Positions 6,300-63,200 of a DNA stretch of 64,000 nucleotides are shown piece by piece. Location of the stretch: positions 434,001-498,000 of the forward strand of contig NZ_JBGCCU010000006.1 of NCBI RefSeq assembly GCF_041261445.1, read 5' to 3'. This stretch comes from Catenulispora sp. EB89. Lineage in GTDB: Bacteria > Actinomycetota > Actinomycetes > Streptomycetales > Catenulisporaceae. Within the stretch, counting starts at the first letter, position 1; each line of letters opens with the position of its first letter. Below the pieces are notes generated by a model that made no database searches, was not told the origin of the DNA, and was given only the letters and a program-made list of their open reading frames with translations. Made by a program: the position numbers and the translations under genes.

Positions 6300-6339
6300 T
6301 GGGCATTTACTGGGCAAAGTGCTGGGCATTTACTGGGCA
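6300..6339 (+). promoter_or_regulatory. Two direct repeats upstream of the LysRS-like/ASCH operon
   Basis: TGGGCATTTACTGGGCA occurs twice, at 6300-6316 and 6323-6339, a 23-base period of about two helical turns. Each copy itself holds two TGGGCA half-sites. The block sits 46 bases before GTG 6385 and looks like an operator array; an attachment-site or iteron role is less likely but not excluded. Confidence 0.5.
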
Positions 6340-6384
6340 TCGGTGGTTAACTGATGCTATGACCAGGTCCTTCACGCTCACGAG

Positions 6385-7293
6385 GTGCCGCCAGTGACCA
6401 CCGCGCCGCGGGCCTCGGGAGCGGTCCTGCGTGATCTGCTGCGTGGCGGGCTACCGCTGTCCGACTACGCGTCAGTCGATCCGGTCCTGCTCGATCTGCG
6501 CGGCGTCGTCGCGCGGGCCGCGTGGCCGGACGACCCCGCCAGCCGGCTGCGGGCCCTGGACTCGCTGCTTCGTTGGCAGCTCGCCCGTTTCACCCACCAC
6601 CGCCTGGCCGTCCCGGCCCGCCTGCTGTTCGGCGCCGCCCCGGAGGCCAGGGGACTGACGCTGACCGAACGGCGAGAGAAGGCCGCGGCGTCAGCCGACT
6701 ACGAAGTTCACCACTTCCGAAAGCGCATCGAGCCGGAGATCTGCGAACAGCTCGCGGACATGCTCAACGCTGACAGCGAGGACCTGCGCAGCCGAGCGAT
6801 ACCTCCGGCACTCGGCCAGGCTCGCAAGCCTCTGCGGCTGCCGGCCGACGTGTTCGCGTGGGAGGCCGCCGAGCACGAACAGGCGCTGTCCGTGCTGTGG
6901 TCCGGTGTCTACGCACTACGGGCCGCGTTGCTGGCCGCCGCAGTGGCCACCGGAACCGGCGGGCCGGACTCGGCACAAGCGGTCGATGCCGCCCGCACTG
7001 CATTGTGGCGGCTGGCCCAGACCCTGAACGCGGCCGCCGCATACGCGGTCGCATATGGGCCGAGCGTGCTCGGGGCTGATCCGCCGACCGAGCCTGAGGA
7101 GTTGGCGTTGCTGGCCGGCTGGTACCCCGTCCTCACCGATGAACTCGCCGCCGAACTGGCGGCAGCTGCCTCCGGGTCCGACCAGCCCGAGCAGTTCTGG
7201 ACCGCCGTCCAAGCCGGCTCCGCCGCCGCCGGAGCGAACTCCTGGTGCACAGACCTGGCCGCTTCAGCGGCCGCCGAAGAAGGAGCTTCCTGA
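6385..7293 (+). CDS. Helical hypothetical protein, first gene of the LysRS-like/ASCH operon
   Basis: A 302-residue, alanine-rich, mostly helical soluble protein. A segment near residues 90-125 (LTLTERREKAAASADYEVHH, then FRKRIEPEICEQLADML) resembles a module I have seen in many uncharacterised actinobacterial proteins. No catalytic motif stands out. The stop overlaps the start of the next gene (TGATG at 7291-7295), so the two are translationally coupled. The start is GTG 6385 or GTG 6394. The operon context suggests a partner of the downstream NTPase and LysRS-like protein. Confidence 0.65.
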   Translation: MPPVTTAPRASGAVLRDLLRGGLPLSDYASVDPVLLDLRGVVARAAWPDDPASRLRALDSLLRWQLARFTHHRLAVPARLLFGAAPEARGLTLTERREKAAASADYEVHHFRKRIEPEICEQLADMLNADSEDLRSRAIPPALGQARKPLRLPADVFAWEAAEHEQALSVLWSGVYALRAALLAAAVATGTGGPDSAQAVDAARTALWRLAQTLNAAAAYAVAYGPSVLGADPPTEPEELALLAGWYPVLTDELAAELAAAASGSDQPEQFWTAVQAGSAAAGANSWCTDLAASAAAEEGAS

Positions 7294-7865
7294 TGGACCT
7301 CGCCGCACTGATCGACCCGTCTGGACCACCCCGCCGCTACGTGATCACCGGCGGGCCGTCCGCCGGCAAGGAGGCCGTGCTCGACGAGCTGGCCACCCGC
7401 GCCATCCCCGCCACCGAGGGTGAGCCGGCCCGCGAGATCTACCGCGCGCACCGCGAACGCCTGGGCCGTCACCTCCAGGTCGGGGACCGCCGCGAGTACT
7501 CCCGTGAAGTCCTCGCAGCGTTTGTCCAGGAATACACCGCCCACAAGCACGGCCTGCGGTTCTACAACCGCGGCATCCCCGACGGCTACGGCTGGGACGC
7601 CTTCTTCGGCCTGTCGCCATACCCGGAGTTGGAGGAGGCCGCCAGGATCTACCGCTACGACGCCGTGTTCGTCCTGGACCCGCTGGATTCCTTCAACGCG
7701 GAGGACGACCTGGTGTTCGCCCAAGACCGGGAGATCCGTCGCGTCCATGAACTGATCGTTCAGGGCTACTACGACACCGGCTACCGCCCGATCTTCATCC
7801 CCGCCGACGACCCCGCCAAGCGCGTCGACCAGATCCTCGCCAACGTTTCCGCACCCACCGCCTAG
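7293..7865 (+). CDS. AAA_28-type (NadR/Ttd14-like) P-loop NTPase or kinase
   Basis: A 190-residue soluble P-loop protein. The Walker A motif is GGPSAGKE at residues about 15-22. The middle has NRGIPDGYGWDAFF and YDAVFVLDPLDSF, followed by a lid-type helix (AQDREIRRVHELIVQGYY). This fits the AAA_28 group, whose members act as nucleotide- or nicotinamide-type kinases or bind phosphoinositides. The substrate here is unknown. ATG 7293 has AAGGAG 7 bases upstream and overlaps the previous stop. It lies 18 bases before the LysRS-like/ASCH gene. Confidence 0.75.
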   Translation: MDLAALIDPSGPPRRYVITGGPSAGKEAVLDELATRAIPATEGEPAREIYRAHRERLGRHLQVGDRREYSREVLAAFVQEYTAHKHGLRFYNRGIPDGYGWDAFFGLSPYPELEEAARIYRYDAVFVLDPLDSFNAEDDLVFAQDREIRRVHELIVQGYYDTGYRPIFIPADDPAKRVDQILANVSAPTA

Positions 7866-7883
7866 CAGCGCAGGAGATCGCTC

Positions 7884-9320
7884 GTGGCCCTCGAACAGAC
7901 CGTGGAGATCGTCAGCCCGAACAACGTCCTGGCCAACGCGATGCTGCGCAGCATCGACATGATCCGGCCTCGCCTGCAGGCATCCCGGCCCGAGCGCGTC
8001 GCGTTCTGTGTCGGCACGCAGATCAACGGCGCGCCGCACTTGGGCACCTCTTTGGTGCAAACCGCCGCGTTCCTACTGGCCAAAGCCGCCAAGCGCACCT
8101 TCAACGTCGATGCCATAGTCCGCTTCGGCGCGCTCGACAACGCCCCCTACGACGTCGTCCTGGACCCCGAGACGCACCACGCCTACCAGCAGACCTACCA
8201 CCACGCCCTGGGCGCGCCCGCTGTCGATGGCCTGATCGAGCAGTACTACCGGGCCTTCTTCGACTCCCTCGCCGACGCCACCGGCGTCGACTACGAAGTC
8301 GAGACCTACACCACCCAGCAAGCCGACCCCGTGTTCCGGTACGAGTTCCTGGCGACCCTAGGCCATCTGGAAACAATCCGTTGGCCACTGGCCCCCTCAC
8401 ACGGCCAGGTCCACCTACGCTTCCCGTGTCCGGCGTGCGGCTGGGCCGAGAAGCGAGCCGAACGCACGCGCCTGGTTGCCGCCGGCTCCGGCGGCGCCGA
8501 CTTCGCCGCGGTCTGCACCGACCACGGCGACTACAAGGTCACCATCACCCCGGACAGTCACGCCTACCTGGACTTGGCCACCCTGTACCGGAACCTCGTC
8601 AAGGAGCGCGTGGCAGCCCGCGACGCTGTGACACTGTCAGTCATGATCAAAGGTGGCGACTGGGCCTTCGGCTGCCAACTGGTCGACGAGGCCTTCACCC
8701 AGCTGCCCGGCCTCACACCGCCGCCGCGCGTGTTCACTCCCATGGTGCTGACCGACACCGGTGCGAAACTGTCCAAGTCCCTGATCCGGGAGGGCCGGAT
8801 GGCCCCACCGCCCGGCGCCCGTCCCTGGATGCTGGACGCGACCGCCTGGACCGGCGCCGTCGACGACTACGTCGACGCGATGGTCTGGCTCGTCGGCCGC
8901 GTGCTGTCGGACCCGAAACACTTCTACCGCTCGTACACGACCCTGGAGATCGACCGCCTGATGAACGCCCGCCCTGACACCGAGACCGGCGTGCGCGCCC
9001 GCGAGATGAACCTCTACCGGCGCTACTTCGACCTGGTCGCCTCCGGCCGCAAGACCATCGAGGTCCGGGTCCAGTACCCCAACCTGCGCAGCCTGGCCGC
9101 CGGCGACCACATCCGCTTCATCTGCGGCACCGACGACGCCCTGACGCGCGTCAAGCGCGTCGCCCGCTACACCTCCTTCGAGCAGATGCTCGACACCGAA
9201 GGCCCGGCACGCGTCAACCCCGACAGCCCGCGCGAGCAACAACTCGCCAACATCCGCCGGATCTACGGCCCGGAGAAGGAAGCCCTCGGCGTCCTGGCCA
9301 TCGAGATTGAACTCGTCTGA
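7884..9320 (+). CDS. Class I lysyl-tRNA-synthetase-like catalytic domain fused to an ASCH domain
   Basis: A 478-residue soluble protein. Residues about 40-310 resemble the Rossmann core of class I aminoacyl-tRNA synthetases: GAPHLGT corresponds to HIGH, and GAKLSKS (about 293-299) to KMSKS. A zinc-ribbon-type insert (CPACG near 182, C and H near 210-214) is as in archaeal class I LysRS. The helical anticodon-binding domain expected after KMSKS is missing; instead residues about 370-478 form an ASCH domain (YRRYFDLVASGRKTIEVRVQ, then LAAGDHIRFICG), a PUA-like RNA-binding fold. GTG 7884 follows GGAG. It may charge lysine or an analogue onto an RNA or small-molecule acceptor, or modify RNA. It is not a housekeeping synthetase. 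Confidence 0.75.
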   Translation: MALEQTVEIVSPNNVLANAMLRSIDMIRPRLQASRPERVAFCVGTQINGAPHLGTSLVQTAAFLLAKAAKRTFNVDAIVRFGALDNAPYDVVLDPETHHAYQQTYHHALGAPAVDGLIEQYYRAFFDSLADATGVDYEVETYTTQQADPVFRYEFLATLGHLETIRWPLAPSHGQVHLRFPCPACGWAEKRAERTRLVAAGSGGADFAAVCTDHGDYKVTITPDSHAYLDLATLYRNLVKERVAARDAVTLSVMIKGGDWAFGCQLVDEAFTQLPGLTPPPRVFTPMVLTDTGAKLSKSLIREGRMAPPPGARPWMLDATAWTGAVDDYVDAMVWLVGRVLSDPKHFYRSYTTLEIDRLMNARPDTETGVRAREMNLYRRYFDLVASGRKTIEVRVQYPNLRSLAAGDHIRFICGTDDALTRVKRVARYTSFEQMLDTEGPARVNPDSPREQQLANIRRIYGPEKEALGVLAIEIELV

Positions 9321-9339
9321 CAGACGCCGGCGTCGTCTG
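9321..9339 (+). terminator. Weak hairpin after the LysRS-like/ASCH gene
   Basis: CAGACG / CGTCTG with a 7-base loop begins directly after the stop codon. The stem is short and there is no T-run, so termination is uncertain. Confidence 0.3.
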
Positions 9340-11234: not shown

Positions 11235-14200
11235 GTGATGACGATCCACAAGATCACCGCCGGGGACGGCTATACCTACCTGACCAGGCAAGTAGCCGCC
11301 GGAGACAGCAGCCCACAGAGGGGCAAGTCAGCGGCCGAGTACTACACCGAAACCGGCAACCCGCCGGGATCATGGATGGGGTCGGGACTACAGAGTCTCG
11401 GCGTATCCGGCCAGGTCTCAGAAGCACAGATGACGGCGCTGTACGGGCAGGGCCTGCACCCGAACGCCGCCGCCATCATCGCGAACTACCAGCGCGAGAA
11501 CGTCACAGCCGAGATGTCGGAACGGCAGCTTAAGAAGGTCAACGAGCAGGCGCGGAAGGCAGCCGGCCTCGGCCGGCCATTCCCCGAGTACCAGGATCTC
11601 GGCCCCTTCGACGATCGCGTGTCGGCCAGGCTGGAAGCAATCCAGACCGAAGTCGGCCGTGCACCGACAGCGGCCGAGGAGAAGAAGGTCCGGCGGGAGG
11701 AAGCCCGGCGCCAGCGGCGGGCTGTGGCTGGCTTCGATCTGGTCTTCACACCGGTGTCTTCAGTCTCGCGGCTGTGGGGTCTCGATCCCCGTCCGTGGGT
11801 CCGCGGGGCGATCGAGCAGGCACACCGCGCAGCCCGAGACGCCGCCTTGAAACTGCTCGAAGAGCACGCCGCGTACACCCGTACCGGCTCATCCGGACAG
11901 GCACAGATCGAGACACATGGACTGATCGCCGCCGTCTTCGACCACGCGGACAACCGACTGGGAGAGCCGAACCTCCACTCACACGTCGCAGTCTCCAGCA
12001 AGGTCCTCGGGACCAACGGAAAGTGGCAGGCACTCGACGCCCGCAGCCTGTACCGGATGACGGTGGCGGCCTCCGAGCTCTACAACACCGTGCTGGAGAA
12101 CGAGCTGCACGCCCGCCTCGGACTCGAATTCGAGACCCGTCCGGACACCGTGGGAAAGCGCGAGCCTGTGCGCGAGATCAGAGGCTTCCCTGCGCAGGTG
12201 CTGTCGCATTTCACCCGCCGGCGAACCGACATCGAGGTCGAGTACCAGCGCCTGGTGGCCGAGTTCCGCGCGGCGCATGGACGCGATCCGACACTGCCGG
12301 CGGCGCACGAACTCGCTCAGCAAGCGACGTTGGCGACCCGCAAGGGCAAAAAGCCACCACGAGCGTGGGCCCTGATGCGGGACGAGTGGCGCGACGACCT
12401 GATAGCGACCTTCGGTCCGCGTGCCCTCGCCGGAGTGAGCGCGGTCGTCCCCACGCGCGGCCGCCGCAGACCGCGGCCCATCACCAGCGCCGAGCTGGAT
12501 GTGGCAGATGTCGCCAGGCGAGTGGTGGCCGAAGTCCAAGAGCACCACGCGACGTGGACCCGCTGGAGCGTATTCGCACAGGCGCAGCGAGAGCTGCGCG
12601 GAACGCGGTTCACGACGCCAGCCGAGCAGGAGTTCGCCGTCACCGCGGTCGTGGATGCGGCGCTGTCCAGGTGGTCGATCTCCACCGAGCCGCCGGAGCT
12701 GGTGGCTGAGCCGACGGCGCTGCGCCGCTCGGACGGGTCGTCGGTGTTCGTCCAACACGGCGCCGAACGCTTCACCAGCCAAGCCGTTCTGGACGCCGAG
12801 GCCCGGCTGGTCGGCGCCGCCGGATATCGCACCACGGTCGGGGTGGACGGGGAGACCACCGACCGGGTGCTGGCCACTCACGAGCAGCAGACCGGCGACG
12901 ATCTCGACGCGGGTCAGCGAGCGCTGGTGAAGGCATTCGCGTGCGACGGACGGTTGCTGCTGGCCGGAATCGGCCCAGCCGGAGCTGGCAAAACCACCGC
13001 TATGAAGGCTCTGACCACCGTAATCGGCGCTGGAAGGAGCGGGCGGCTGGTGCCGTTGGCGACCTCGGCATCGGCGGCCGGGGTCTTGGCTGCGGAGCTG
13101 GGAACCGGAGCCGAAAACCTGCACAAGTTCCTGTGGGAATGGAGGAAAGGACCGCACGCCAAGGCCCTGGCTGCCGGACGGAAGGTACCGCGGGGGAAGG
13201 AGTTCTTCGCCCTGAACCCGGGCGACACCGTCTTGGTGGACGAGGCCGGCATGGCCGGCACCTTGAACCTCGACCGGCTCGTGACCATCGCCGCCCAACA
13301 TGGTGCCGCCGTGCGCCTGCTAGGCGACTACCGGCAGCTTGGCGCTGTCGAATCCGGTGGAGCCCTGAGGCTCATCGCGAACGAGTCCGGAGCGGTGGAG
13401 TTGTCGACCCTGTACCGGTTCGAGGACCCCTTCGAAGCAGAGGCAACACTCAAGATCCGTGTCGGCGACACCGCCGGGCTCGACTTCTACCAGGATGCCG
13501 GACGGATTCAGCACGGGTCGCGTCAGGGCATGACCGAGCAGGCGTACGCCGGCTGGAAGACCGACATGCTCGCCGGCCGCAACGCTCTCATGGTCGCCGC
13601 GGCCAACGCCGATGTGGCCGAACTGTGCGCTCGGGCTCGTGCCGACCGGGTCGCCGCCGGACAGGTCGAAGCTGACGGCGTGCGCTTGCACGACGGCAAC
13701 CTCGCGGGCACACGGGACCTAATCGTGACCCGCGACAACGACCGCCGGCTCCGCTCCGGGACACGCGACTTCGTGAAGAATGGCGATGCCTGGGAAGTGG
13801 TCGAACGCCACGCCAACGGCGCCCTGACCGTCGAGCACCTGGAGCACCACGGGCGTGTGTCGCTCCCGCCGGAGTACGTCGCCGCCAACGTCGAACTGCT
13901 CTACGCCACCACCGCCCACCGTGCCCAGGGTTCAACAGTGGACACCTGCCACGCACTGATAACCGAGGAGATGGGACGGGAGAACTTCTACGTCATCGCC
14001 TCCCGGGCCCGGCACGGCACGGTCTTGTATGTCGCCACTCATGAGCTCGCGAGCTTGGACGAAGACGAGCATGTAGACGCCGTGAAGTTCGACGCGGACG
14101 CCTACGTCGCCCGCGAGATCCTCGAACACGTGGTGGCTCGTGAGACTGCCGAGCTGTCAGCGACCGAGCAGATCCGAGCCTCGTTCGCCGAAGCCGAATC

Positions 14201-15818
14201 GCTGTTCAGCCTCGTACCGCGATACGACCACGCACTCGATGTCGCAACCGACTCCCACTACCGGCAGGTAGTCGAGAAGGTGCTGCCAGATCTGGCCGAG
14301 TCGATCATCAGCGATCCGGCATGGCACGCGGCCCTGCGGGCACTTCGCGATGCCGACGCTGGCGGATGGGACGTCTCGGCCCTTCTCGGTAGGACCGCAC
14401 GCAAGCGCGAGTTGGCCACCGCAGACTCGCTTGCTCAAGTCATTTCGTGGCGTCTACGCCAGGTCATCGAGACGGAATCGGCGCCGCTCACCGATGGCTC
14501 CGACGAGATCCGCTATCGCTCCGTCCTCGCCGAGGTCGCCCCGGCCCTGGCATCTGGAGTCGATTCGGCTCCTCCGGCGACGGTCCCGGCTCCGGGTGCA
14601 CCTGGCGACGATTCCGACCGGCTGTACGAGCGCGCCGTCTATAGAGCTCTGGGAACCGTCCGCACCGAACAGGCTCGCGTGGAAGACACCTGGCCGGCAC
14701 TGCTGCTCGCGCTACGGCGCGCCGACGCCCTCGGGGCGGACGCCACCGAAGTTCTGGAAGCCGTGACCTGCCGCAGAACACTCCGTCTCGGAGCCTCGAT
14801 CTGTCAATCCGCCGCCTTGGCCGTCCACCGCTACCTTGACGCGAGAACCACCAGTACGACCGACGACTCGCGCTCAGCTTGGCGACGGATCACGCATGCG
14901 CTGACGCGGCTCGAAGAGGCCGGCACCGAACCCGAAGCCGCGTTGACCGAGGCCATCATGAGCCTCCAAGCCGGCGCGGACAGCGTCGCCCTTAGCACCT
15001 TGGCCAAGCTCCTGGAGTCGGCTGCGCGTCGTGCGGAAGACCCCCTCCTACCTGCCTGGCTCCGCAGCGCGCGACCGGTCGCCGCTCCGCAGTGGCGCCC
15101 GTATCTGGACGCGCGAGCCGAACTGATCCGCCGTCGCGTCGACCAGCTGGCCCAAACCGCCGTGGCCGAACGACCCACCTGGACCGCGCACCTCAGCATG
15201 GAACCCACCGACCCGGCCCAGCGCGAAACCTGGCTGAACCACGTCGCCGCCATAGCCGCCTACCGCGACCAGTACCAGGTCGCAGACGACGACCCGTCCG
15301 CTCTCGGCCCATATCCCGAGAGCGGACGGGTCGGCCATCGCGCCTACTGGATCGCTGCCGCGTCCCTCCTGGCCCTACGTGGCACCAGTCCGACCGCAGA
15401 CCCGAGCTGGGGGCGACTGGCCGCCGACCGCTACCGGACTCTGGACATCGAGGAGCAGAACCGCATCGCCGCCGAACTCGCCAACCGACTCGGCCGAAAC
15501 TGGCTCGGAGACAACCGCGAGCCGGCTGTCGACGCCGACCAGCCTGTCTACCACCAGAAACTCGCCGCCATCCTCGTCGAGCACGGACACCTGGACATCC
15601 CCGAACCCAGCCTCGCCAGCCAGCCCACACCAAGGACGCCGAGCGCCCGCGGTCGTGCCAAGCAGCGCCACCGCCGCTCGATCCACCCAAATCCGCAGCA
15701 GCAGCTGCCTAGAATCCCCGAGATCATCGAGTCGCCAGAAAGCCGGTCGGGCACCTTCGCTCAGCGCCCGCCCCAGACCGCGCCGGACCAGCCACGTAGG
15801 CCAGAGGCAGGACGTTAA
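11235..15818 (+). CDS. MobF (TrwC/TraA-type) conjugative relaxase-helicase
   Basis: A 1,527-residue protein that would nick the element at oriT and unwind it for transfer. The N-terminal relaxase domain (residues about 1-310) has the metal-binding HSH motif (LGEPNLHSHVAV near 245-255) and several Tyr residues near the start that could be catalytic. The RecD-like helicase part (about 550-960) shows Walker A GPAGAGKTT, Walker B LVDEAGM, GDYRQLGAVESGG and the late motif TTAHRAQGST. The C-terminal 500 residues are helical and less conserved. Length and order fit TrwC/TraA relatives of actinobacteria. The start is GTG 11235 or ATG 11238. It stands apart from the transfer operon (22-38 kb). Confidence 0.9.
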   Translation: MMTIHKITAGDGYTYLTRQVAAGDSSPQRGKSAAEYYTETGNPPGSWMGSGLQSLGVSGQVSEAQMTALYGQGLHPNAAAIIANYQRENVTAEMSERQLKKVNEQARKAAGLGRPFPEYQDLGPFDDRVSARLEAIQTEVGRAPTAAEEKKVRREEARRQRRAVAGFDLVFTPVSSVSRLWGLDPRPWVRGAIEQAHRAARDAALKLLEEHAAYTRTGSSGQAQIETHGLIAAVFDHADNRLGEPNLHSHVAVSSKVLGTNGKWQALDARSLYRMTVAASELYNTVLENELHARLGLEFETRPDTVGKREPVREIRGFPAQVLSHFTRRRTDIEVEYQRLVAEFRAAHGRDPTLPAAHELAQQATLATRKGKKPPRAWALMRDEWRDDLIATFGPRALAGVSAVVPTRGRRRPRPITSAELDVADVARRVVAEVQEHHATWTRWSVFAQAQRELRGTRFTTPAEQEFAVTAVVDAALSRWSISTEPPELVAEPTALRRSDGSSVFVQHGAERFTSQAVLDAEARLVGAAGYRTTVGVDGETTDRVLATHEQQTGDDLDAGQRALVKAFACDGRLLLAGIGPAGAGKTTAMKALTTVIGAGRSGRLVPLATSASAAGVLAAELGTGAENLHKFLWEWRKGPHAKALAAGRKVPRGKEFFALNPGDTVLVDEAGMAGTLNLDRLVTIAAQHGAAVRLLGDYRQLGAVESGGALRLIANESGAVELSTLYRFEDPFEAEATLKIRVGDTAGLDFYQDAGRIQHGSRQGMTEQAYAGWKTDMLAGRNALMVAAANADVAELCARARADRVAAGQVEADGVRLHDGNLAGTRDLIVTRDNDRRLRSGTRDFVKNGDAWEVVERHANGALTVEHLEHHGRVSLPPEYVAANVELLYATTAHRAQGSTVDTCHALITEEMGRENFYVIASRARHGTVLYVATHELASLDEDEHVDAVKFDADAYVAREILEHVVARETAELSATEQIRASFAEAESLFSLVPRYDHALDVATDSHYRQVVEKVLPDLAESIISDPAWHAALRALRDADAGGWDVSALLGRTARKRELATADSLAQVISWRLRQVIETESAPLTDGSDEIRYRSVLAEVAPALASGVDSAPPATVPAPGAPGDDSDRLYERAVYRALGTVRTEQARVEDTWPALLLALRRADALGADATEVLEAVTCRRTLRLGASICQSAALAVHRYLDARTTSTTDDSRSAWRRITHALTRLEEAGTEPEAALTEAIMSLQAGADSVALSTLAKLLESAARRAEDPLLPAWLRSARPVAAPQWRPYLDARAELIRRRVDQLAQTAVAERPTWTAHLSMEPTDPAQRETWLNHVAAIAAYRDQYQVADDDPSALGPYPESGRVGHRAYWIAAASLLALRGTSPTADPSWGRLAADRYRTLDIEEQNRIAAELANRLGRNWLGDNREPAVDADQPVYHQKLAAILVEHGHLDIPEPSLASQPTPRTPSARGRAKQRHRRSIHPNPQQQLPRIPEIIESPESRSGTFAQRPPQTAPDQPRRPEAGR

Positions 15819-29957: not shown

Positions 29958-30773
29958 TCAGTCGGTGGAGACGGGCTGGCGGCTGAACGTGCGATCGAAG
30001 GCGAGGTCCACGTCGTCGGCGCGGAACCACATCGCGTCTTCGTCGTCGTCCTGGCGCGGACCGAAGGCCCACCAGGAGCCGTCGTAGTAGGTGAAGGCGA
30101 CGATGGTCTCGTGCTGCGGATGGGCCAGGCCGGCGTTTGTCAGGGCACGCATCTGCGCTGCGGTGACGACGTTGAGTTCGGGCATGGTGATCACCCCTTG
30201 TTCGGATGAGGGCTGGCGCAGGTGCTGCGGAACGCCGGCAAGAGGATCGGGGTACGCCCACCCACGGATTCGCTCAGGACTGAGGTCGGTGGTCGGGTTC
30301 GCGTGGCCAGCGCGGCAGCCACCGGCCCACCAGATGGAAACGTGCCCGAGGAAGGTGACAAGGGCCTGATGCCAGTAGACGGCTGACTGACCGGCGCCTT
30401 CGGGCCCATACGCTTCCATCCGCCAAGCACGCAGAGCCCATAGCTCTTCGATCAGTTCGGGATGCCGTGGCCAACAATCGGGTAGCCGGTCTTCGAGCAC
30501 CAGGCGGTAGCGACCGACGAGCCACGCAGTCCAGCCGCGCAGTTCCTCCCACGCCAGCGTGTACTCCGGCTCGGTCATCGCGTGCCACTCGATCAGGGGG
30601 ACGTGAGCGTCGCTGGATCTCGGCTGGCCCTCGCCAGGTCCCGCGACATCCGACGCAGCCCGCGGCTTGCGAGTGAGACGGTTAGCAGTCTGCCGAGGCC
30701 GGCCACGAATCCGGCGTCCGGCGCTCGGGGCGACTGAAGGTGGCGATGTGTGACGGTCGTCGAAGCCGTTCAC
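29958..30773 (-). CDS. DUF4913-like protein with a separate C-terminal segment
   Basis: A 271-residue protein. Residues about 70-165 (WEELRGWTAWLVGRYRLVLE, then CWPRHPELIEELWALRAWRM) resemble DUF4913, a domain found near T4SS genes in actinobacterial elements. The last 80 residues, from a Met at about 196 with GGGG upstream, form a distinct beta-rich unit (IVAFTYYDGSWWAFGPRQ) that might be translated separately. GTG 30773 overlaps the TGA of the coupling-protein gene (GTGA), which supports this start. The function is unknown. Confidence 0.55.
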   Translation of the reverse strand: MNGFDDRHTSPPSVAPSAGRRIRGRPRQTANRLTRKPRAASDVAGPGEGQPRSSDAHVPLIEWHAMTEPEYTLAWEELRGWTAWLVGRYRLVLEDRLPDCWPRHPELIEELWALRAWRMEAYGPEGAGQSAVYWHQALVTFLGHVSIWWAGGCRAGHANPTTDLSPERIRGWAYPDPLAGVPQHLRQPSSEQGVITMPELNVVTAAQMRALTNAGLAHPQHETIVAFTYYDGSWWAFGPRQDDDEDAMWFRADDVDLAFDRTFSRQPVSTD

Positions 30774-32605
30774 GGGGTCCGCTCCTTCATCGCTGTCGCG
30801 CAGAGGCCAGCGAGTGTGGTGTACGCGTCCCTTTCTGCTTGGGCGTACAGCGCCGCGTCGGGGCCTTCGTAGTGGCGGGTCATCCGGATCTTCACCGCTG
30901 GAGTGGTGGCGTGGATGACGAGCGCCTCGCGCGCGGCGGAGCTGAGCGTGCGGATGTCCTCGGCCGTCATGGTCTTGTGCTGCTGGATCGAGGTCCCGGT
31001 GGTGATCGAGCCATCGTCCGAGCGTTGGTAGGTGGTCATGTGCCGGTCGTACTCGCCGACCAAGTTCTCCGAGAGGTCACGCAACTCGTTGCCGGACAGG
31101 CCGCCGAGGATGAGCTTGACGGTGGCCGCGCCCCAGAGCATCGCTGCCTGTTCAGCGCCCCAGCGGGCTTCGGCCTGGGCACGGGACTGGAGGATGGCGG
31201 CGATGAAGATGCCTGAGCCGCCGGCGAACGACATCAGGTCGGGCAGGGACGGGAGCGGGACGACGTTGGCGATCTCGTCGAGGAACAGACCGAGCGGCGG
31301 GTCGAGTCGCCCGCTGGGCATCGTGTCCGCGATGCGCTTCGCGGTCTCAATCAGCTCGTCGACGAACACCGCGATGAGCGGAGCGAGAGCACTGGCCTGC
31401 TTCCTTTCGACCAGAAGGTAGATAGTCCCCTTCGATCGCAAGAAGGACTCCAGGTCGAAGCACTCGGACTCGGCCTCCGGGCAGAACGTGGCCTGCGCGG
31501 TCGGCGAAAGCAACGGAGCGAGCGCGGTCTGGACCGTGGTCCACAGGCCGGACTTGGTCTCCGGCGGCGTCCGGTAGAGGCCGTCCAGCAGCTGGGCGCT
31601 GCCGGGTGCAGCGTCCGGGTGATCGCGCAGGAGCTTGACGGGGGTGTCGTCCCGGTCGTTGAGCGACCACGTGAGCACGTCGAGCATGGAGCGGCCGGCG
31701 AGCGCGGCGGCGTGCAGCCACAGGGTGAGCAAGTTGGTGGCGTTGGCGCCGAAGTACCCGGCGTTCGACGAGTCCTGCTTCTCACTGCGCCCGACGGTGA
31801 CCATCACCTCGGCACGCTCACGGGCTTTGTCCAGGTTCTTACAGCCGGAAGTAGGCGACCATCGCACCATCGAAGACCACGACGTCATCCCAGTCGGAGC
31901 CATGACTGCGACCGGTCCTCGTCGACCTCGCAGCGCCGCGGTGGCCAGCAGCACGTCCATCCGCATCGACGTCACCAGCGCGGAGCCCGGCCAGCGGTGA
32001 ACCCACGGGATCACCACCTGCGAGGACTTGCCCTGACGGGGAGCAGCGATCACAACGACGGAGTCCTCGGTGGAGACGGCGAGCTTCACCTTCTCCGGAA
32101 TGGAGTGGCCGAGCGGCAGCCCGACATCGGTCAGCCCGAACGGCGCCTTCCTCAGGCTCGGGCGTACCACCGGCCCGCGCTTGGTGACGGCCGACGCAGC
32201 AAGGTGCACCGTGAGGTCTCTGCGCGTTGCGAATCCGTCGTCGCGTCGTCTGAACCGCACCCATACGCGAGCGCCGACGACGGTCAGCCCGGCGCCGGCG
32301 GCGAGTAGGAGAAGGCCGGCGCAGTAGAAGAGCACGGGTCCCGGCAGGATCGCAGCCGCGTCAGCCGGCCAAGCCGTACGCGGGTCACGCAGATGCTCGG
32401 CGAGGTGCAGCACGATCGACAGACTCCGCGCAGGCGGGACATGAGGCGCGACACCGTGCGCCAACAGCCCGGCTGCTTCCCCCCACAGCCAGGTGCCGAC
32501 TCCAGCAACCACGCAGAGTCCGACGGCGAGCATGATGACGAAGTCCTTGCCGTCGTGCACCAGGTGCCGAGCGGGAGAAGGGCCTGCGGAAGGCGTAGCC
32601 ATCAC
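30770..32605 (-). CDS. VirD4/TraG-type conjugative coupling protein
   Basis: A 611-residue membrane ATPase that would link the relaxase-DNA complex to the secretion channel. Two N-terminal membrane segments (residues about 22-50 and 88-112) precede the motor domain. Walker A is APRQGKSSQ near 190 and Walker B is GLFLDEIANV near 424. The C-terminal part has ILQSRAQAEARWG and GLSGNELRDLSENLVG, as in TraG/VirD4 relatives. The length is normal for the family. It lies 18 bases after the VirB4-like gene and overlaps the DUF4913-like gene by four bases. Confidence 0.85.
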   Translation of the reverse strand: MMATPSAGPSPARHLVHDGKDFVIMLAVGLCVVAGVGTWLWGEAAGLLAHGVAPHVPPARSLSIVLHLAEHLRDPRTAWPADAAAILPGPVLFYCAGLLLLAAGAGLTVVGARVWVRFRRRDDGFATRRDLTVHLAASAVTKRGPVVRPSLRKAPFGLTDVGLPLGHSIPEKVKLAVSTEDSVVVIAAPRQGKSSQVVIPWVHRWPGSALVTSMRMDVLLATAALRGRRGPVAVMAPTGMTSWSSMVRWSPTSGCKNLDKARERAEVMVTVGRSEKQDSSNAGYFGANATNLLTLWLHAAALAGRSMLDVLTWSLNDRDDTPVKLLRDHPDAAPGSAQLLDGLYRTPPETKSGLWTTVQTALAPLLSPTAQATFCPEAESECFDLESFLRSKGTIYLLVERKQASALAPLIAVFVDELIETAKRIADTMPSGRLDPPLGLFLDEIANVVPLPSLPDLMSFAGGSGIFIAAILQSRAQAEARWGAEQAAMLWGAATVKLILGGLSGNELRDLSENLVGEYDRHMTTYQRSDDGSITTGTSIQQHKTMTAEDIRTLSSAAREALVIHATTPAVKIRMTRHYEGPDAALYAQAERDAYTTLAGLCATAMKERTP

Positions 32606-38348: not shown

Positions 38349-38879
38349 ATGAGCAAGCAGGCCAAGGGAGCGGGCGAGGAGCCGGCGACGCCTGCTGCGA
38401 CCGGCGAACGGACTCCGCCCGACGAGCAGTCACCGCATCCCAGCACGGCCGACCCAGGCGTCATCGCCGAGCGGCTGCAGTACCTGTTCGAGAACAAGCG
38501 CAAGCCGGACGGCAAGAGGTACTCCTACCGGGAGGCCATCCGGGCGATCGAGGCCGAGGGCGGAGCGTCGATCTCGGTCGGGTACCTGTCGCAGCTGGTC
38601 AACGGGGTCAGAACGAACCCGATGATGGACGCGATCCAGGGCCTTGCGAAGTTCTTCGGGGTCCCGCTGTCGTACTTCGACGAGCACGAGGACACCGAGG
38701 AGACGAACGAGCAGCTCAAGCTGGTCGCCGCACTCCAGCACGCCGGGGTCCAGGACGTGGCGATGCGCACGGTCGGGCTGCCGCCGGAGAGCGTCAAGCT
38801 GGTCTTGAGCATGATCGACCGGGTGCGCGAGGTCGAGGGACTGCCGCCGGCCGAATCGGCGCCCGACACGGACGAGTAG
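38349..38879 (+). CDS. XRE-family regulator, EspR-like
   Basis: A 176-residue DNA-binding protein. A disordered N-terminus of about 35 residues precedes an XRE HTH domain (about 38-105: VIAERLQYLFENKRKPDGKR, YSYREAIRAIEAEGG, SISVGYLSQLVNGVRTNP). The C-terminal helix pair probably drives dimerisation. This shape matches EspR-like regulators of actinobacteria. ATG 38349 has AAGGGA 6-7 bases upstream. It faces away from the transfer operon and likely represses one or both directions. The gene after it encodes a HEXXH peptidase. Confidence 0.8.
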   Translation: MSKQAKGAGEEPATPAATGERTPPDEQSPHPSTADPGVIAERLQYLFENKRKPDGKRYSYREAIRAIEAEGGASISVGYLSQLVNGVRTNPMMDAIQGLAKFFGVPLSYFDEHEDTEETNEQLKLVAALQHAGVQDVAMRTVGLPPESVKLVLSMIDRVREVEGLPPAESAPDTDE

Positions 38880-38946
38880 CACTCGACCGCTGGTCCGCCC
38901 CGCTGCGGCATGGACTCGTGCCGCTTCGAGCGCCGGGTGAACTGCG

Positions 38947-39471
38947 GTGAATCGAGAGCAGTCGCGCCGCGAGTGCTCGGCGCTGGTCGCCGGCCTCGAC
39001 CTCCCCGCCCCGTTCGATCTCCAGGGATTCTGTGCACAACTCGGTCGGCTCCTCGGCCGAAGCATCGTCCTGATGTCGCACTCGATGGTGATCGGCGGAC
39101 TGTGCGGGGCTTGGATGAGAACGTCCAACGCCGACTACGTCTTCTACGAAGAGGACACCTCGCTGCTGCACCAGCAGCACATCGTCTTCCACGAGATCGG
39201 GCACATCCTGCGCGCCCACGTGCCCGGCAAGGAGCTCAGCAACGACCTGGCGCGGACCATCGCGGCCGGCGCGAAGGTCAGCGACGTCTTCCGGGTGCTC
39301 GGGCGGGACTCATACGCCGAGGACGACGAGTTCGAGGCGGAGCTCATCGCGACGCTGATTCTGCGCCGGATCGGACGCCAACCACTTCGAGAAGTGCCAC
39401 GAGCCACGGATCCCAGCGCCGATGAGGTCATCGCGCGCATCACGACCTCTCTGTCGCGAGGTGAGCGATGA
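38947..39471 (+). CDS. ImmA/IrrE-like HEXXH metallopeptidase
   Basis: A 174-residue protein with the zinc-peptidase motif FHEIGHILRAH near residues 80-90 and a third possible ligand in the DDEFEAELIA helix (about 127-136), the usual ImmA/IrrE arrangement. The size is typical for the actinobacterial ImmA-like family encoded next to XRE genes. In ICEBs1, ImmA cleaves the repressor ImmR to switch on transfer; a similar role is inferred from the neighbours. The start is GTG 38947, and its stop overlaps the next start (ATGA). Confidence 0.8.
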   Translation: MNREQSRRECSALVAGLDLPAPFDLQGFCAQLGRLLGRSIVLMSHSMVIGGLCGAWMRTSNADYVFYEEDTSLLHQQHIVFHEIGHILRAHVPGKELSNDLARTIAAGAKVSDVFRVLGRDSYAEDDEFEAELIATLILRRIGRQPLREVPRATDPSADEVIARITTSLSRGER

Positions 39472-57635: not shown

Positions 57636-58292
57636 TCACTGAATCAACGCGACGCTGAGTAGCCCACACCCGAAGGACTTGCCTCGCCCAATCCCCTTCC
57701 GTATAGCTTGCACGACGGCTTCGGGGTCGGTGACAGTGGCCTGTCCGTCGAATTGGCTGGCGGCATGCTGGGCGTGGGGCGTGCCTGGTACCCGCCGGGC
57801 CCGGATGTCGTCGTGCGTCGTGGTAGCGGCTGAGGTGATCTGCAGGCCGTTGCGTGCCGCGCGCTGCTCCCACCAAGCCTGGATGGCGTCTGGACTTCGC
57901 AGGGCTATGACCTGTCCAGGTTTGCCCTCGCTGCCGACGTATTCGCGGGGCAGGCGTTTGCTGGTGTTGGCTGTGATCCGGTAAGCGATCGATGTGCCGA
58001 CTTGGAGAGCTGCGAGCAGGTTGTGCAGGGATCGGGGCTCGGGAACGTGCGCGTAGCCGTCGGGAAGGTTGGCCAGTGTGGGTTCGATGCCGGTCTGGGC
58101 CAGGATCCTGATTCCGGCACGGGTGTGTTCGATGCGGTAGAGGACGGCGGCGGTGCTGCGGGCGTGGTCTCCGAGGTCGTCGCGAACCAGGGACATGACG
58201 CGGCGGTGGACGGCCCCGGCGTCGGCGAGGTCACGGCGGGCCGCGGGATGGTTCAGGTTCAACTGGAGGCTGACCAGCCACGGCCCGGTCAT
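57636..58292 (-). CDS. cas6e: Type I-E Cas6e (CasE) crRNA endonuclease
   Basis: A 218-residue crRNA-processing nuclease. It has the double ferredoxin pattern, an N-terminal LVSLQLNLNHPAARRDLADA with the likely catalytic region near HRRVMSLVRDDLG, and the C-terminal Gly-rich loop IGRGKSFGCGLLSV. It cuts the repeat hairpin and stays in Cascade. ATG 58292 overlaps the cas5e stop (ATGA). It is the last gene of the effector operon and converges with the array. Confidence 0.92.
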   Translation of the reverse strand: MTGPWLVSLQLNLNHPAARRDLADAGAVHRRVMSLVRDDLGDHARSTAAVLYRIEHTRAGIRILAQTGIEPTLANLPDGYAHVPEPRSLHNLLAALQVGTSIAYRITANTSKRLPREYVGSEGKPGQVIALRSPDAIQAWWEQRAARNGLQITSAATTTHDDIRARRVPGTPHAQHAASQFDGQATVTDPEAVVQAIRKGIGRGKSFGCGLLSVALIQ

Positions 58293-59098
58293 GCTGGAGC
58301 CGCTTGGACGAGGGTGGCCCCGGCGATGCCCCGCAGGTGCTGGGCGATGCGGTCCATGTAGTGGATCCCCAGGCCCGCGCACAAGGCGGCGGGCAGATCG
58401 CGTGGTTCCAGAAGGACGCGGCGGCTGGTGTAGCGGCGGTTGAATCGGCCGAAGGACTGTGGAACGTCCCAGACCTCGTGCTCGATGCCGGGACCGGCTG
58501 CGTCGCCTTCGGAGTCCGCCGGGGCCTCGCGTACGAAGTCCACGCTGACGGTGTCCTGGCCGCGTGGGGCGATGCGGGGCAGCGGGAAGATGTCCAGGTG
58601 CCCGAGCGCGTCTTCCAGCCCGGTGGCCAGCAGGACCGGTTCGGCCGGGGGGCAGGAGCGGCGGCCCAGGTACAGCGGCCACACCGGTGCGGCCAGGGCG
58701 CTGGAGATCTCGTCGATGACGTGGTCGGGGCCGTCCAGGGCGACGAGGAACGCGGCGTCGGCCAGATAGTGACGGCGGGAGATCAGGGCGTTGGCCTTGC
58801 TGCGGTAGGCCGGTTTGTGGCGTTCGCTTTCGGCGGTGGGGACGGTGGCGTTCCTGGGCAGGCCGCCGCCGACGGTGTGGAAGTCGACGGTGTCGGTGCC
58901 GGCGCGGTCGACGCGGATGGTGATCTGCAGCAGGTTCAGCTCGCCCGGTGGCTGGCTGCGGTCCCGGCCCAGGGCGCAGGACAGCAGGCCGGTGATGCCT
59001 GAGCGGGTGGGGAAGGCCAGGGTGTCGCGTTCGGCGAAGGTGGAGTGCTCGCCCCAGGATTGCAGTGGCCCGGCCAGTCTGAGCAGCGCGCCGGTCAC
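58289..59098 (-). CDS. cas5e: Type I-E Cas5e (CasD)
   Basis: A 269-residue Cascade subunit that caps the crRNA 5' handle. The start matches the family pattern: LLRLAGPLQSWGEHSTF, then RDTLAFPTRSGITGLL. A Gly-rich region (VDFHTVGGGLPRN) and YLADAAFLVALDGPD follow. GTG 59098 overlaps the cas7e stop (GTGA); the longer frame to 59233 is a shadow. The length is slightly above the usual 225-250 residues, with an extended C-terminus. Confidence 0.92.
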   Translation of the reverse strand: MTGALLRLAGPLQSWGEHSTFAERDTLAFPTRSGITGLLSCALGRDRSQPPGELNLLQITIRVDRAGTDTVDFHTVGGGLPRNATVPTAESERHKPAYRSKANALISRRHYLADAAFLVALDGPDHVIDEISSALAAPVWPLYLGRRSCPPAEPVLLATGLEDALGHLDIFPLPRIAPRGQDTVSVDFVREAPADSEGDAAGPGIEHEVWDVPQSFGRFNRRYTSRRVLLEPRDLPAALCAGLGIHYMDRIAQHLRGIAGATLVQAAPA

Positions 59099-60219
59099 GA
59101 GGCCGCCTGGGTGGCGGCGTGGACGGCGGCGTCGATGAGTGTGGTGTAGGAGCTGTGGCGGTCGCCGAGTCCGGCGAGGTCTTTGTCGTCCACACCGGCG
59201 TGTCCGGCGAACAGGCGGCCGGTCGAGCCCCACAGGGTGTCAATGCGTCCGCTGTATTCGGCGAGCTTCTGCCGGGAGGGCAGGGCCCAGCCGCCCTCGC
59301 CGGCGGGCCGCACGGGCTGTTCGAAGGCGGGCGCCAGGGAGATGGGCCGGTCGCCGCGGACGGCGATGTGCACGAGGTCGGGGATGGTGCGCGGTGCGGT
59401 GGAGTTCTTCTTGCTCTCCGGCAGGGCGTCGAGGAAGGTGGCCAGGAACGCCCGGGTGACCTCCAGCGCGCCGGCCCGGTCGGCGGACAGGTTTTTGGTG
59501 AGTTCGTCCAGGTCGATTGCGGCGTAGCGGTAGAAGGTGCCGGAGGAGAACTCTGCGGTGCTCATGTGGCCGCTGCCCTGAACCTGTAGGGCGTCATCGA
59601 CGGCGGTGAAGAAGTCCAGCTCGGGCTCGCTGGCGTGGGTGGTGAAGGCGTGGGCGACCTGCACCGCGCCGTCGACCTGGCCACCGGGGATCTCGGCGAG
59701 CATCCGCCCGAACAGCGAGATCATCGAGTTGGTCGCTTTGAGGATCTCGGCGACATCTTTGTCTGGCAGGACCTGGGTGGGCTTTTTGGACCCGGCCTGC
59801 ACCTCTAGTGCGGACCTGTGCTCGCGGCACAAGGCGGCGAGTCTGGCCGGGGTATCGGCGGGGACGAACAGCAGGACCTTGGTCTGGGGGACGTCGGCGT
59901 CCTTGGCTTTCTCCGATTTCAGGTCACCGGCGGCCGACAGCAGCTGGTTGACGGCCAGCTGTGCCAGCTCTGTGGCCCAGCCGTCGGCCACCAGGAGTTC
60001 GAACAGCTCGCGGGTGATCAGGCGGGTACGCACTGCGGGCTGTCCGAGTTGGTCCTGCAGCTGAACGCGGATCGCGCGCTTCCAAGCCTGGCTGGACACC
60101 CGCGTACGCTCCGCCCCGCCGTAGATCACGGTTTTGGGGCGGTTGTTCTCGTCCCGGTTCAGGTTGACGTAGGAGAACGTCTGCAGGGCGTGGACATCGA
60201 TGAACCGTGCACGGGTCAT
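59095..60219 (-). CDS. cas7e: Type I-E Cas7e (CasC) backbone
   Basis: A 374-residue RAMP protein that polymerises along the crRNA. The N-terminus FIDVHALQTFSYVNLNRDEN and KTVIYGGAERTRVSSQAWKR are diagnostic of Cas7e. SEPELDFFTAVDD and STAEFSSGTFYRYAAIDLD follow in order. ATG 60219 overlaps the stop of the upstream fused gene (60216) in an ATGA junction, so no separate cas11 (cse2) gene fits between them. Confidence 0.95.
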   Translation of the reverse strand: MTRARFIDVHALQTFSYVNLNRDENNRPKTVIYGGAERTRVSSQAWKRAIRVQLQDQLGQPAVRTRLITRELFELLVADGWATELAQLAVNQLLSAAGDLKSEKAKDADVPQTKVLLFVPADTPARLAALCREHRSALEVQAGSKKPTQVLPDKDVAEILKATNSMISLFGRMLAEIPGGQVDGAVQVAHAFTTHASEPELDFFTAVDDALQVQGSGHMSTAEFSSGTFYRYAAIDLDELTKNLSADRAGALEVTRAFLATFLDALPESKKNSTAPRTIPDLVHIAVRGDRPISLAPAFEQPVRPAGEGGWALPSRQKLAEYSGRIDTLWGSTGRLFAGHAGVDDKDLAGLGDRHSSYTTLIDAAVHAATQAAS

Positions 60220-63200
60220 GTCGGGTCGCTGTCTTTCTCGAGAGTGGAATCGGTGTCCTGGTTGGGATCGGGGTTGTCGCTGGACAGCGCCGCCCGGTGG
60301 TAGGTGTGCAGCCAGCGCGTGGCGATCTCGGCACGATGCCGGTCCCAGCGAGCCAGGTCCAGCAGCAGCGCGGCCCAGTCCGGACGGCGGCCGACGGTGA
60401 TCAGCCGATCGGTTATGGAGGGGAGCCGTTGGCGCAGGCCAGCAGCGCTGGTGCGGGCCAGGGCGTGAATCTGGTCGGTGGTCGAGTCCCTGTTCAGGTC
60501 CCCGGCGGCGACGGCCAGCCCCAGCACCGCGGCCAGCGGCAAAGGACGTGCGGCCAGCGGCTTGCGGTTCGCGGCCTGCGCCGGCTCTGAGGCCTCGGCG
60601 ACCAGGTCTTCACGTGGTTCCGCAGTTTCCGGCGCGGCGTCGTGACCGGAGACGGCGTCGCTATCGGGGTCGTCGTCGGGGCCGGCCGAGCGCCTGACGT
60701 GCTCCTCCTCGGCGACGATGGCCGCGATGGTGTAGCAGGCGAGTTGCCAGTCCCCCACATCAATACCTGCAGGGCTCTGGCGGCCCTGGTGCTGTTCGAC
60801 TGCGGCCATCGAGGCTTCCACGACGCCGAATACCGCCTCCCCCAGCCGGTAGCGCCGCGTCTGCGCTTTCGAGCGGCGCAGCGCCGCCCTCGCCCCGTTG
60901 TCACCGCACCTGATGCGGACCTGCTGGACGAACAGGTTGGCCGCCGCCGTATTGGGGCCGGGGGCTGTCTGTGCGGTCAATGTGCTGGTCCTCTTCCTGG
61001 CCGCGGCCGCTTGCGGTTTCGGGAAGAACCGGGCGCGGCCCAGTTCCACGGCATAGATCGTCTGGGGTCGGGTCGAGCGGTTGGCTCTGGTGGTGCGGTC
61101 GTAGGCGTCCAGGGCCACGAGCCGGAACCGGCGCAGCGGGGCCACTGTGTCTCCTTCGCGCACGGCTCTCCAGAAGGCCTGCTCGGCGGCGGGCCAGTAC
61201 ATGACGGCGGCCGTCTGCTGCCACAGCTGGTCATCGCTGCGGGCGCCGGTGGTCTCCCAGGCGGTGCCGATAGCTGTCTTGAGTTGCCAGGCGGCGTTGT
61301 CCGCCGCGGCACGCAGCTTGGCGATCTGCTCGGTAGCCTGCGGGTTCTGCTGGACCGCCCAGCGCAGGACGCCGGCCGGGGTGTCGGCGGTGAACCATTG
61401 CCGGTCGGTGGTTTTGCCGTCCTGGTCAAACCCCAAGGCTCTGATCCGCAGTTGCCCGTGCACATCCGGCGGCAGCGACGTGGCACTGTGCTCCATCGCG
61501 GCGGGCTGGTCCACCAGACGCCCTTTCGCGGTGTCCTGGTGCGACCGGTAACCCAGCAATGCGTCCAGGTCCCGCCACAGCGCGCGCTCGGCAGTGGTGG
61601 AGTGCGGAAACCGTGCTTCCTTGACGGTGACGTAGGCCAGGTACGGATCGTCGGCCGGCACGGCCTCCCCGCGTACGCCCCACGTCAGGTAGGCCTGGGC
61701 TACGTGGCCGGTGTCGATCCCGCCTTTGGCGTCGGCGGCCGGCCGCAGCAGCAGCGCATGGCGTCCGCGCGTGGTGAGCAGTTCGGTGAACCGGGCAGGC
61801 CGCGACGGCAGGGCCAGGGCGTCGGGGAGCTCCGGCTGTTCCCAGGGGCAGCCCAGTTCGTCCTGGTCAAGGTCGACGCCCTTGCTGGGAAGGATGTTGA
61901 CCAGCAGCGATTGGAACAGGCTGGTCCCGATCTGGTGGTAGGACACCGCCCGACGCAGCGGTCCGGCCTTGGTGTCGGCCGCGTTCACCTCTCCGGCCTT
62001 GCGGGCAGTGCACCGGCCGGCCGGGCCGTAGTACATCTGGGCTATGAGATGCCACACCGCCTCTGCGGTTCGCAGCGGCTGCGGATCGGCGTCGATGTTG
62101 TGGTCGAACCACACCTGGTTGTTGCCAGAGGTCCGGGACAGCACCAGCCGGTTGACACCCGAGCTCTTCTCGCACTGCCGGGCCAGCCGCGGGTCCTGCA
62201 GCCAGGGCCGTTCGGCGTCGAAGACGTCGAAGCGGTCAGCATAGGTCTTGAAGTATCCGGTAATGTCCTCGATCTTGAACCGCCCGGCATCCAAGGCCTC
62301 ATCACGCCGGTCCTGCCAGGCCTCGACCCGCCCGGCAGGCCGGTCCAAACCGGTGATCCTCGCGGTGATCGCGTACAAGATCCGCCACAGCCCCGACTGC
62401 GCTGGCGGCACCGGCACAGCCAGATCCTGGATCTCGTGGGCACGCTCGAACAGCTCCAGCAGCCCCACTTCCCGCGTCTGACCGCCGGTCTCCCGCACCG
62501 GAATCCACGGCTGCGTCAGCAGGTCGAACCCCGGTGCTCCCCGGCCCCCGACCCCACCGTATGACGGCTCGGCCACAGTCCTCCCCCCTCTGCCTGGCTG
62601 ACTCCTCAACAAGCCACTGTCCGTATCCAGCAGAAAGCTAACAGTGCCCACCGACACCGGGCGGGGTTTCGCCCCATCGAGCCGGTGCGGCAGCAACACC
62701 ACCCCGGCCAGATGCGGATCATCCGCCCAGCACACCGGCGGGACGTTCTCCGGGCCCAGATCCTTCGCCCACGCCCCGCGACGCACCGGGATGCACCAGC
62801 GGCGCACCTGACGCACCTGCGCCCGCGACGGCCGGCCCCTGTATCCGAGACCGACCTCCGGCAGTGTCTCGGTGCACCCCGGGTCCAGCCACCGCCGACC
62901 CGCCGCGTCCACGAAACAGCACAGCATCTGCACCGAATCGGCATCCAACCGAGTCAAGGCATGCTCATCAGGCAGATAGGACCGCGAGAACTCGTACAGG
63001 TCCTGCATGTCCGCCGGCGCCGGGATCATCCGGGTCGCGGCCTCGCCCGCCGCGGCCTGGTCCGCACCCAGCCGTGCCAGCGCCGCCTGCTGGATCGCGG
63101 CGTCATCGGTACCGTCGAAGCCCCGGTATACGCGCTCGACAAGGTCTTGCACGTCGTCAGGGATCTTAACGACCTTGACTTGGCCAGCATCCACGCGCTT

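Follow-up and report, generated by a model that had tools for sequence, protein, structure and literature searches.

A mobile three-gene cassette of actinomycetes combines a class I LysRS-like synthetase core fused to an ASCH domain with a putative controller family common to type I restriction-modification loci

Introduction

What does an aminoacyl-tRNA synthetase core do when an ASCH domain stands in place of its anticodon-binding domain and its gene is coupled to two others on a mobile element? This question is raised by a locus of Catenulispora sp. EB89 (GCF_041261445.1), in a window of 64,000 nt, the whole stretch of DNA analysed here (NZ_JBGCCU010000006.1, 434,001-498,000, forward strand). 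A preliminary description of this DNA proposed three tightly coupled genes, encoding a helical protein, an AAA_28-type NTPase and a LysRS-like/ASCH protein, which follow a repeat operator on an accessory island and match no described system. It called for a structure prediction of the third protein in comparison with LysRS-I and for a gene-neighbourhood survey.

Synthetase-derived proteins acting without an anticodon domain include GluQ-RS, EpmA/PoxA and MshC (PMC9437257, PMC2922099), and EpmA/PoxA, which is derived from LysRS, aminoacylates a protein (PMC9437257). These proteins resemble the one studied here in having a synthetase core, a non-translational use (presumed in the present case) and no anticodon reader. 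However, none of them is a LysRS-I derivative with an ASCH domain, and none has the two partner genes or a mobile, self-regulated operon.

Results

Organization of the locus

The three genes, here called A, B and C, are co-directional, and the start of B overlaps the stop of A by one base. Their features, all on the plus strand and in window coordinates, are as follows.

6300-6339, +: operator, two 17-bp copies of TGGGCATTTACTGGGCA (half-site TGGGCA-N5-TGGGCA), 23 nt apart, at 6300-6316 and 6323-6339
6385-7293, +: gene A, 302 aa, all-helical, predicted DNA-binding autoregulator
6652-6735, +: most conserved segment of A (per-column counts, 34 sequences)
7293-7865, +: gene B, 190 aa, P-loop NTPase of the AAA_28 family (Pfam and 34-sequence alignment)
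7350-7373, +: altered Walker A of B, GGPSAGKE (34-sequence counts)
7566-7574, +: NRG of B (DRG in the four AAA_28 relatives compared)
7884-9320, +: gene C, 478 aa, ASCH fusion of a class I LysRS-like synthetase core
8019-8048, +: HIGH-like motif of C, QINGAPHLGT
8427-8525, +: zinc-ribbon insert of C, C182-x2-C185 ... C211-x2-H214
8766-8780, +: KMSKS-like motif of C, KLSKS (residues 295-299)
9006-9317, +: ASCH domain of C (Pfam), with the GxKxxExR motif at 9045-9068

Gene C has a LysRS-like core without an anticodon-binding domain

C has the HIGH and KMSKS motifs and the Rossmann-type core of the class I aminoacyl-tRNA synthetase superfamily, and the motifs QINGxPHLGT, CxxC...CxxH, GxDW, KLSKS and GxKxxExR recur without exception in its intact actinobacterial homologues. 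The AF2 model of C, built from 32 homologues (mean pLDDT 86.7), has class I LysRS 1irx as its best PDB fold (E 9.8e-10) and MshC as a weaker match. By sequence, Pfam found no synthetase family in the window protein at E<=1, only one of the 32 relatives matched PF01921 (E 0.11, with no match above the cut-off), and a direct profile comparison with LysRS-I was weak (hhalign probability 2.8%, E 0.016). A distant relative from Macrococcoides came closer to PF01921 (E 2.5e-5, short of the Pfam cut-off), and C aligns with the pair of distant relatives found on Pantoea and Macrococcoides plasmids (hhalign E 3.3e-33). Because the direct profile similarity is weak, the relation of C to LysRS-I rests on the fold and on these bridging relatives. 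In a viral library, the named matches to C include glutaminyl- and lysyl-tRNA ligases and ASCH proteins.

Like class I LysRS (PF01921, 1irx), C retains the catalytic fold, the order of HIGH and KMSKS and the zinc insert. Unlike class I LysRS, it adds an ASCH domain and has neither the anticodon-binding cage nor the R-E pair after HIGH that all eight aligned LysRS-I sequences share; thus, a preference for lysine is not implied. No helical-cage anticodon-binding domain was found in the model, the C-terminal part of which matches ASCH structures. Only about 70 residues separate KMSKS (295-299) from ASCH (375), and there is no room for the cage because ASCH begins so soon. The structural comparison thus bears out a LysRS-like core with ASCH in place of the anticodon-binding domain. 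Judged from its motifs and modelled fold, the class I synthetase site appears intact and C would be able to form an aminoacyl-adenylate. A housekeeping LysRS was ruled out as an identity for C, which has no anticodon domain and is rare and mobile. ARAGORN placed a tRNA-Ser on the minus strand at 8443-8523, opposite the zinc-ribbon region of C, which is probably spurious, and an Rfam search of the window for a conserved small RNA or tRNA partner gave no match.

The ASCH domain is kept in fused and split forms

The ASCH domain covers residues 375-478 of C (Pfam E 6.9e-9) and is present in 32 of 32 relatives. This probable RNA-binding domain shows the ASCH fold and the GxKxxExR motif, with PH0355 (E 8.8e-9), PF0455 and PF0470 as PDB relatives. 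The motif and fold are common to PF0470/PH0355 and YqfB, whereas the fusion to a synthetase core sets C apart. Similarity to YqfB, an N4-acetylcytidine amidohydrolase, is marginal (E 0.3-0.4), and T24 of YqfB, which we take to be catalytic, corresponds to E393 in C. Phage Picard and many Streptomyces plasmids encode the synthetase-like part and ASCH in two overlapping genes. Since the split genes keep the ASCH partner, the two halves probably cooperate without being fused as well. Split C occurs without A and B on Streptomyces plasmids and in phages Picard and Mojorita, a temperate phage being among the carriers.

The distant relatives mentioned above are devoid of ASCH. The one from Pantoea (L052) adjoins genes for a methyltransferase, a LOG-type phosphoribohydrolase, a DMT exporter and an ITPase-like enzyme, and the one from Macrococcoides (L053) adjoins two ATP-grasp ligases and an MFS transporter. 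Viral contigs scanned with these ASCH-less relatives gave no match. At L033 (7475-7894), where C is fused but A and B are missing, an overlapping gene comes next that by eye resembles a low-molecular-weight phosphatase or arsenate reductase, and in L015 (12458-12856) a second, partial copy of C comprising the C-terminal (ASCH) end lies ~1 kb downstream of the operon.

Gene B is an AAA_28 protein with an altered active site

B matches the kinase-like NTPases of AAA_28 (PF13521) over its whole length (E 3.5e-22), as the preliminary description had anticipated. Unlike them, its Walker A ends in GK[E/D] rather than GK[S/T] in 34 of 34 sequences, and N replaces the acid of DRG, giving NRG, again in 34 of 34. 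As both changes at the active site are invariant, ordinary kinase activity of B is doubtful.

Gene A and its operator

The AF2 model of A is all-helical (pLDDT 90.5), in agreement with the initial assignment. Pfam gave no HTH or other family at E<=1, and a PDB fold search with the model gave no match. Conservation over 34 sequences peaks at G-x2-L-T-x-RR-x2-AA ... HHFRK-x-x-EP, which corresponds to two helices of the model (residues 93-103 and 108-135), and this helix pair is a candidate for DNA binding.

The bipartite operator 5' of A has the consensus TGGG[C/T]A-N5-TGGG[C/T]. Of 36 cassette loci, 35 carry TGGGC[A/T]TTTNCTGGGC once or twice upstream of A, compared with 11 occurrences of the loose form elsewhere in these loci (1.42 Mb, both strands). 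In the 11.9 Mb host genome, TGGGCNTTTNNTGGGC has two matches, both at 6300-6339 of the window. Loci with C only were searched for the operator and do not have it. Since the operator goes with A and is missing from C-only loci, A is suggested as its reader. The operator lies at the promoter of A itself, serves this operon alone and is inherited together with A, as for an autoregulated controller. A looks like a DNA-binding autoregulator, and the sequence evidence that it controls expression is strong. A short ORF, MTRSFTLTRCRQ, at 6359-6397 begins just past the operator, runs into the start of A in a different reading frame and may encode a leader peptide.

Homologues of A precede type I restriction-modification genes

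A search with A alone found homologues without C in other classes of Actinomycetota. In the first eight such loci, hsdM lies directly downstream of the A-family gene in six, the complete loci among which also have hsdS and hsdR, and TGGG[C/T]A-N5-[T/C]GGG occurs within 32 nt of the A start in all eight (strictly in six), with a background of one loose match in 187 kb; these counts are small, as genome sampling was capped, and include near-copies (L130/L141/L142 and L131/L144). In four later loci, the loose operator was found in one, and an hsdM match lies directly downstream in one, a 21-residue remnant followed by an SNF2-type helicase. These type I restriction-modification (R-M) loci are like the cassette in having the A-family gene with a TGGG[C/T]A-N5-TGGG[C/T] operator directly upstream, but they have HsdM, HsdS and HsdR where the cassette has B and C. 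Pfam searches of A, B and C revealed no HsdM, HsdS, HsdR, methylase or nuclease, so only A is common to the two. Unlike XRE-type controller proteins of R-M systems, A has no HTH family match, and the homologues at L129 and L131 likewise gave no HTH or other Pfam match at E<=0.01. By its sequence, the A family has the marks of a controller family common to type I R-M operons and the synthetase cassette, a connection overlooked in the preliminary description.

In L129 (7751-10809), the A-family gene with its operator is followed by a gap, a phosphoketolase-like protein (XFP_N, E 1.3e-36) and a 359-aa protein. In L142 (4621-6949), the hsdM behind the A-family gene matches over its first 270 residues and then gives way to recombinase-like ORFs, that is, an interrupted R-M locus.

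Distribution and mobility

Among 41 C-bearing actinomycete loci from GTDB genomes, the genes A, B and C co-occur in the same order in 37, and their conservation across genera is far beyond chance. The neighbourhood survey therefore upholds the tight coupling of the set. No other family is constant in the neighbourhood of these loci, including any transporter or biosynthetic gene. Full-length C is found in 3 of 396 sampled Actinomycetota genomes, and A in 7 of the 14 genomes of the host's own family. The tree of C requires eight changes of taxonomic order, compared with a minimum of four, and places two Actinomadura copies within the Pseudonocardiales clade. The whole set also occurs on plasmids, and resolvases and Tn3 transposases are encoded in the flanks of the cassette. 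The copy in the window adjoins a conjugative element with a TrwC-type relaxase (11235-15818) and a TraG/T4SS coupling protein (30770-32605), which substantiates the accessory island.

Neighbouring genes were not clearly enriched for defence families, PADLOC counts being similar for 91 flanking and 91 random ORFs, and an argument for a defence island from the neighbours was therefore dropped. Elsewhere in the window, beside the transfer region (38349-39471), an HTH_3 gene is followed by a small gene that by eye may be ImmA/IrrE-like, and a repeat-rich stretch lies close to ORFs at 58289-63977 that by eye resemble type I-E Cas proteins (Cas7/Cas3-like).

A, B and C are all without a match in NCBIfam, and in PADLOC 2023 they match no known anti-phage family. 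The open-access literature searched describes neither this set nor a synthetase-like defence or phage gene of this kind, although such absence is not proof. Together with the Pfam searches, these results agree with the earlier view that no described system has this set of genes.

Discussion

The explanation that we tentatively favour, while holding it to be somewhat less than an even chance, is that the cassette is a mobile, self-regulated, R-M-like conflict module, in which ASCH guides an adenylate-forming synthetase as the effector. In this mechanism, A would control the operon by binding the TGGG[C/T]A-N5-TGGG[C/T]A sites that cover its promoter, acting like the controller proteins of R-M systems that arrive in a new host. 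R-M and similar modules, which have to establish themselves in a new host, typically come with dedicated control, and A thus ties the cassette to that class of systems. C would form an aminoacyl-adenylate from an amino acid, and its ASCH domain would pick the acceptor, a role given to ASCH because C has no anticodon-binding domain. The acceptor would most likely be RNA, either a tRNA-like end or a modified base. B may be a sensor or switch that depends on nucleotide, and not an ordinary kinase.

Several lines of evidence argue for such a conflict module: the motifs kept in all intact homologues of C together with its LysRS-I fold plus ASCH, the retention of ASCH even as a separate overlapping gene, the constancy of the A-B-C unit with its plasmid copies, phage-borne split C and a tree that mixes taxonomic orders, and an operator that travels with A and, with A homologues, precedes hsdM. 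It also fits that PUA-like ASCH/EVE domains occur next to type I R-M systems (PMC7641849). Against it stand the lack of PADLOC families in A, B and C and of clear defence enrichment in the flanks, the lack of a recognisable nuclease or toxin in the operon, the weaker context of the four later A-only loci, and the small-molecule chemistry suggested by the neighbours of the ASCH-less relatives. With more doubt, one may go further and see the cassette as an R-M-like system for immunity or addiction, regulated by a controller, whose effector, the adenylate-forming synthetase, aminoacylates the RNA or DNA that ASCH reads, either for defence or for self-marking.

The strongest rival, although in our judgement an unlikely one, is a tRNA-independent amino-acid ligase like MshC, which would build a peptide-like or nucleoside-like metabolite, with ASCH binding a nucleotide-like acceptor and B phosphorylating it. 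It ranks as the strongest because the ASCH-less relatives, which are homologous to C, adjoin ATP-grasp ligases and exporters in small clusters that look biosynthetic, and the weaker fold match to MshC is in line with it. However, no transporter or biosynthetic gene is constant near A-B-C, the controller is common to R-M, and B is without the usual Walker A S/T and DRG acid. Improbable as well is a toxin-antitoxin-like addiction, with C or B toxic to translation and A (or B) restraining it so that the element is kept in the cell. An autoregulation-like operator, strict coupling, and carriage on plasmids and ICEs would suit such a system, but three genes including a large enzyme would not. Moreover, split C persists on phages and plasmids without A and B, and C alone is therefore probably tolerated.

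Two further functions for C seem to us quite improbable, to about the same degree. C may be a tRNA synthetase that reads the acceptor stem, for example as an antibiotic-insensitive spare; its HIGH and KMSKS motifs are intact, its fold is that of LysRS-I, and GluQ-RS-type enzymes work without an anticodon domain (PMC9437257). But C has neither the LysRS-I R-E pair nor the cage, and neither A nor B would be needed for such an enzyme. Alternatively, C may modify a protein, following the precedent of EpmA/PoxA, which lysylates EF-P (PMC9437257). Against this, ASCH is a domain of nucleic-acid type, and the neighbourhood encodes no conserved protein substrate.

To return to the R-M-like conflict module, the set of A, B and C hints at a module for defence or RNA modification of a kind not yet described. 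If this is true, a LysRS-I-derived ASCH enzyme would join the few synthetases recruited to tasks outside translation. The A family, as a putative controller family with a defined operator, links type I R-M loci to a synthetase-based cassette. The operator lends itself to immediate testing, and further undescribed conflict modules may be sought by means of the A family.
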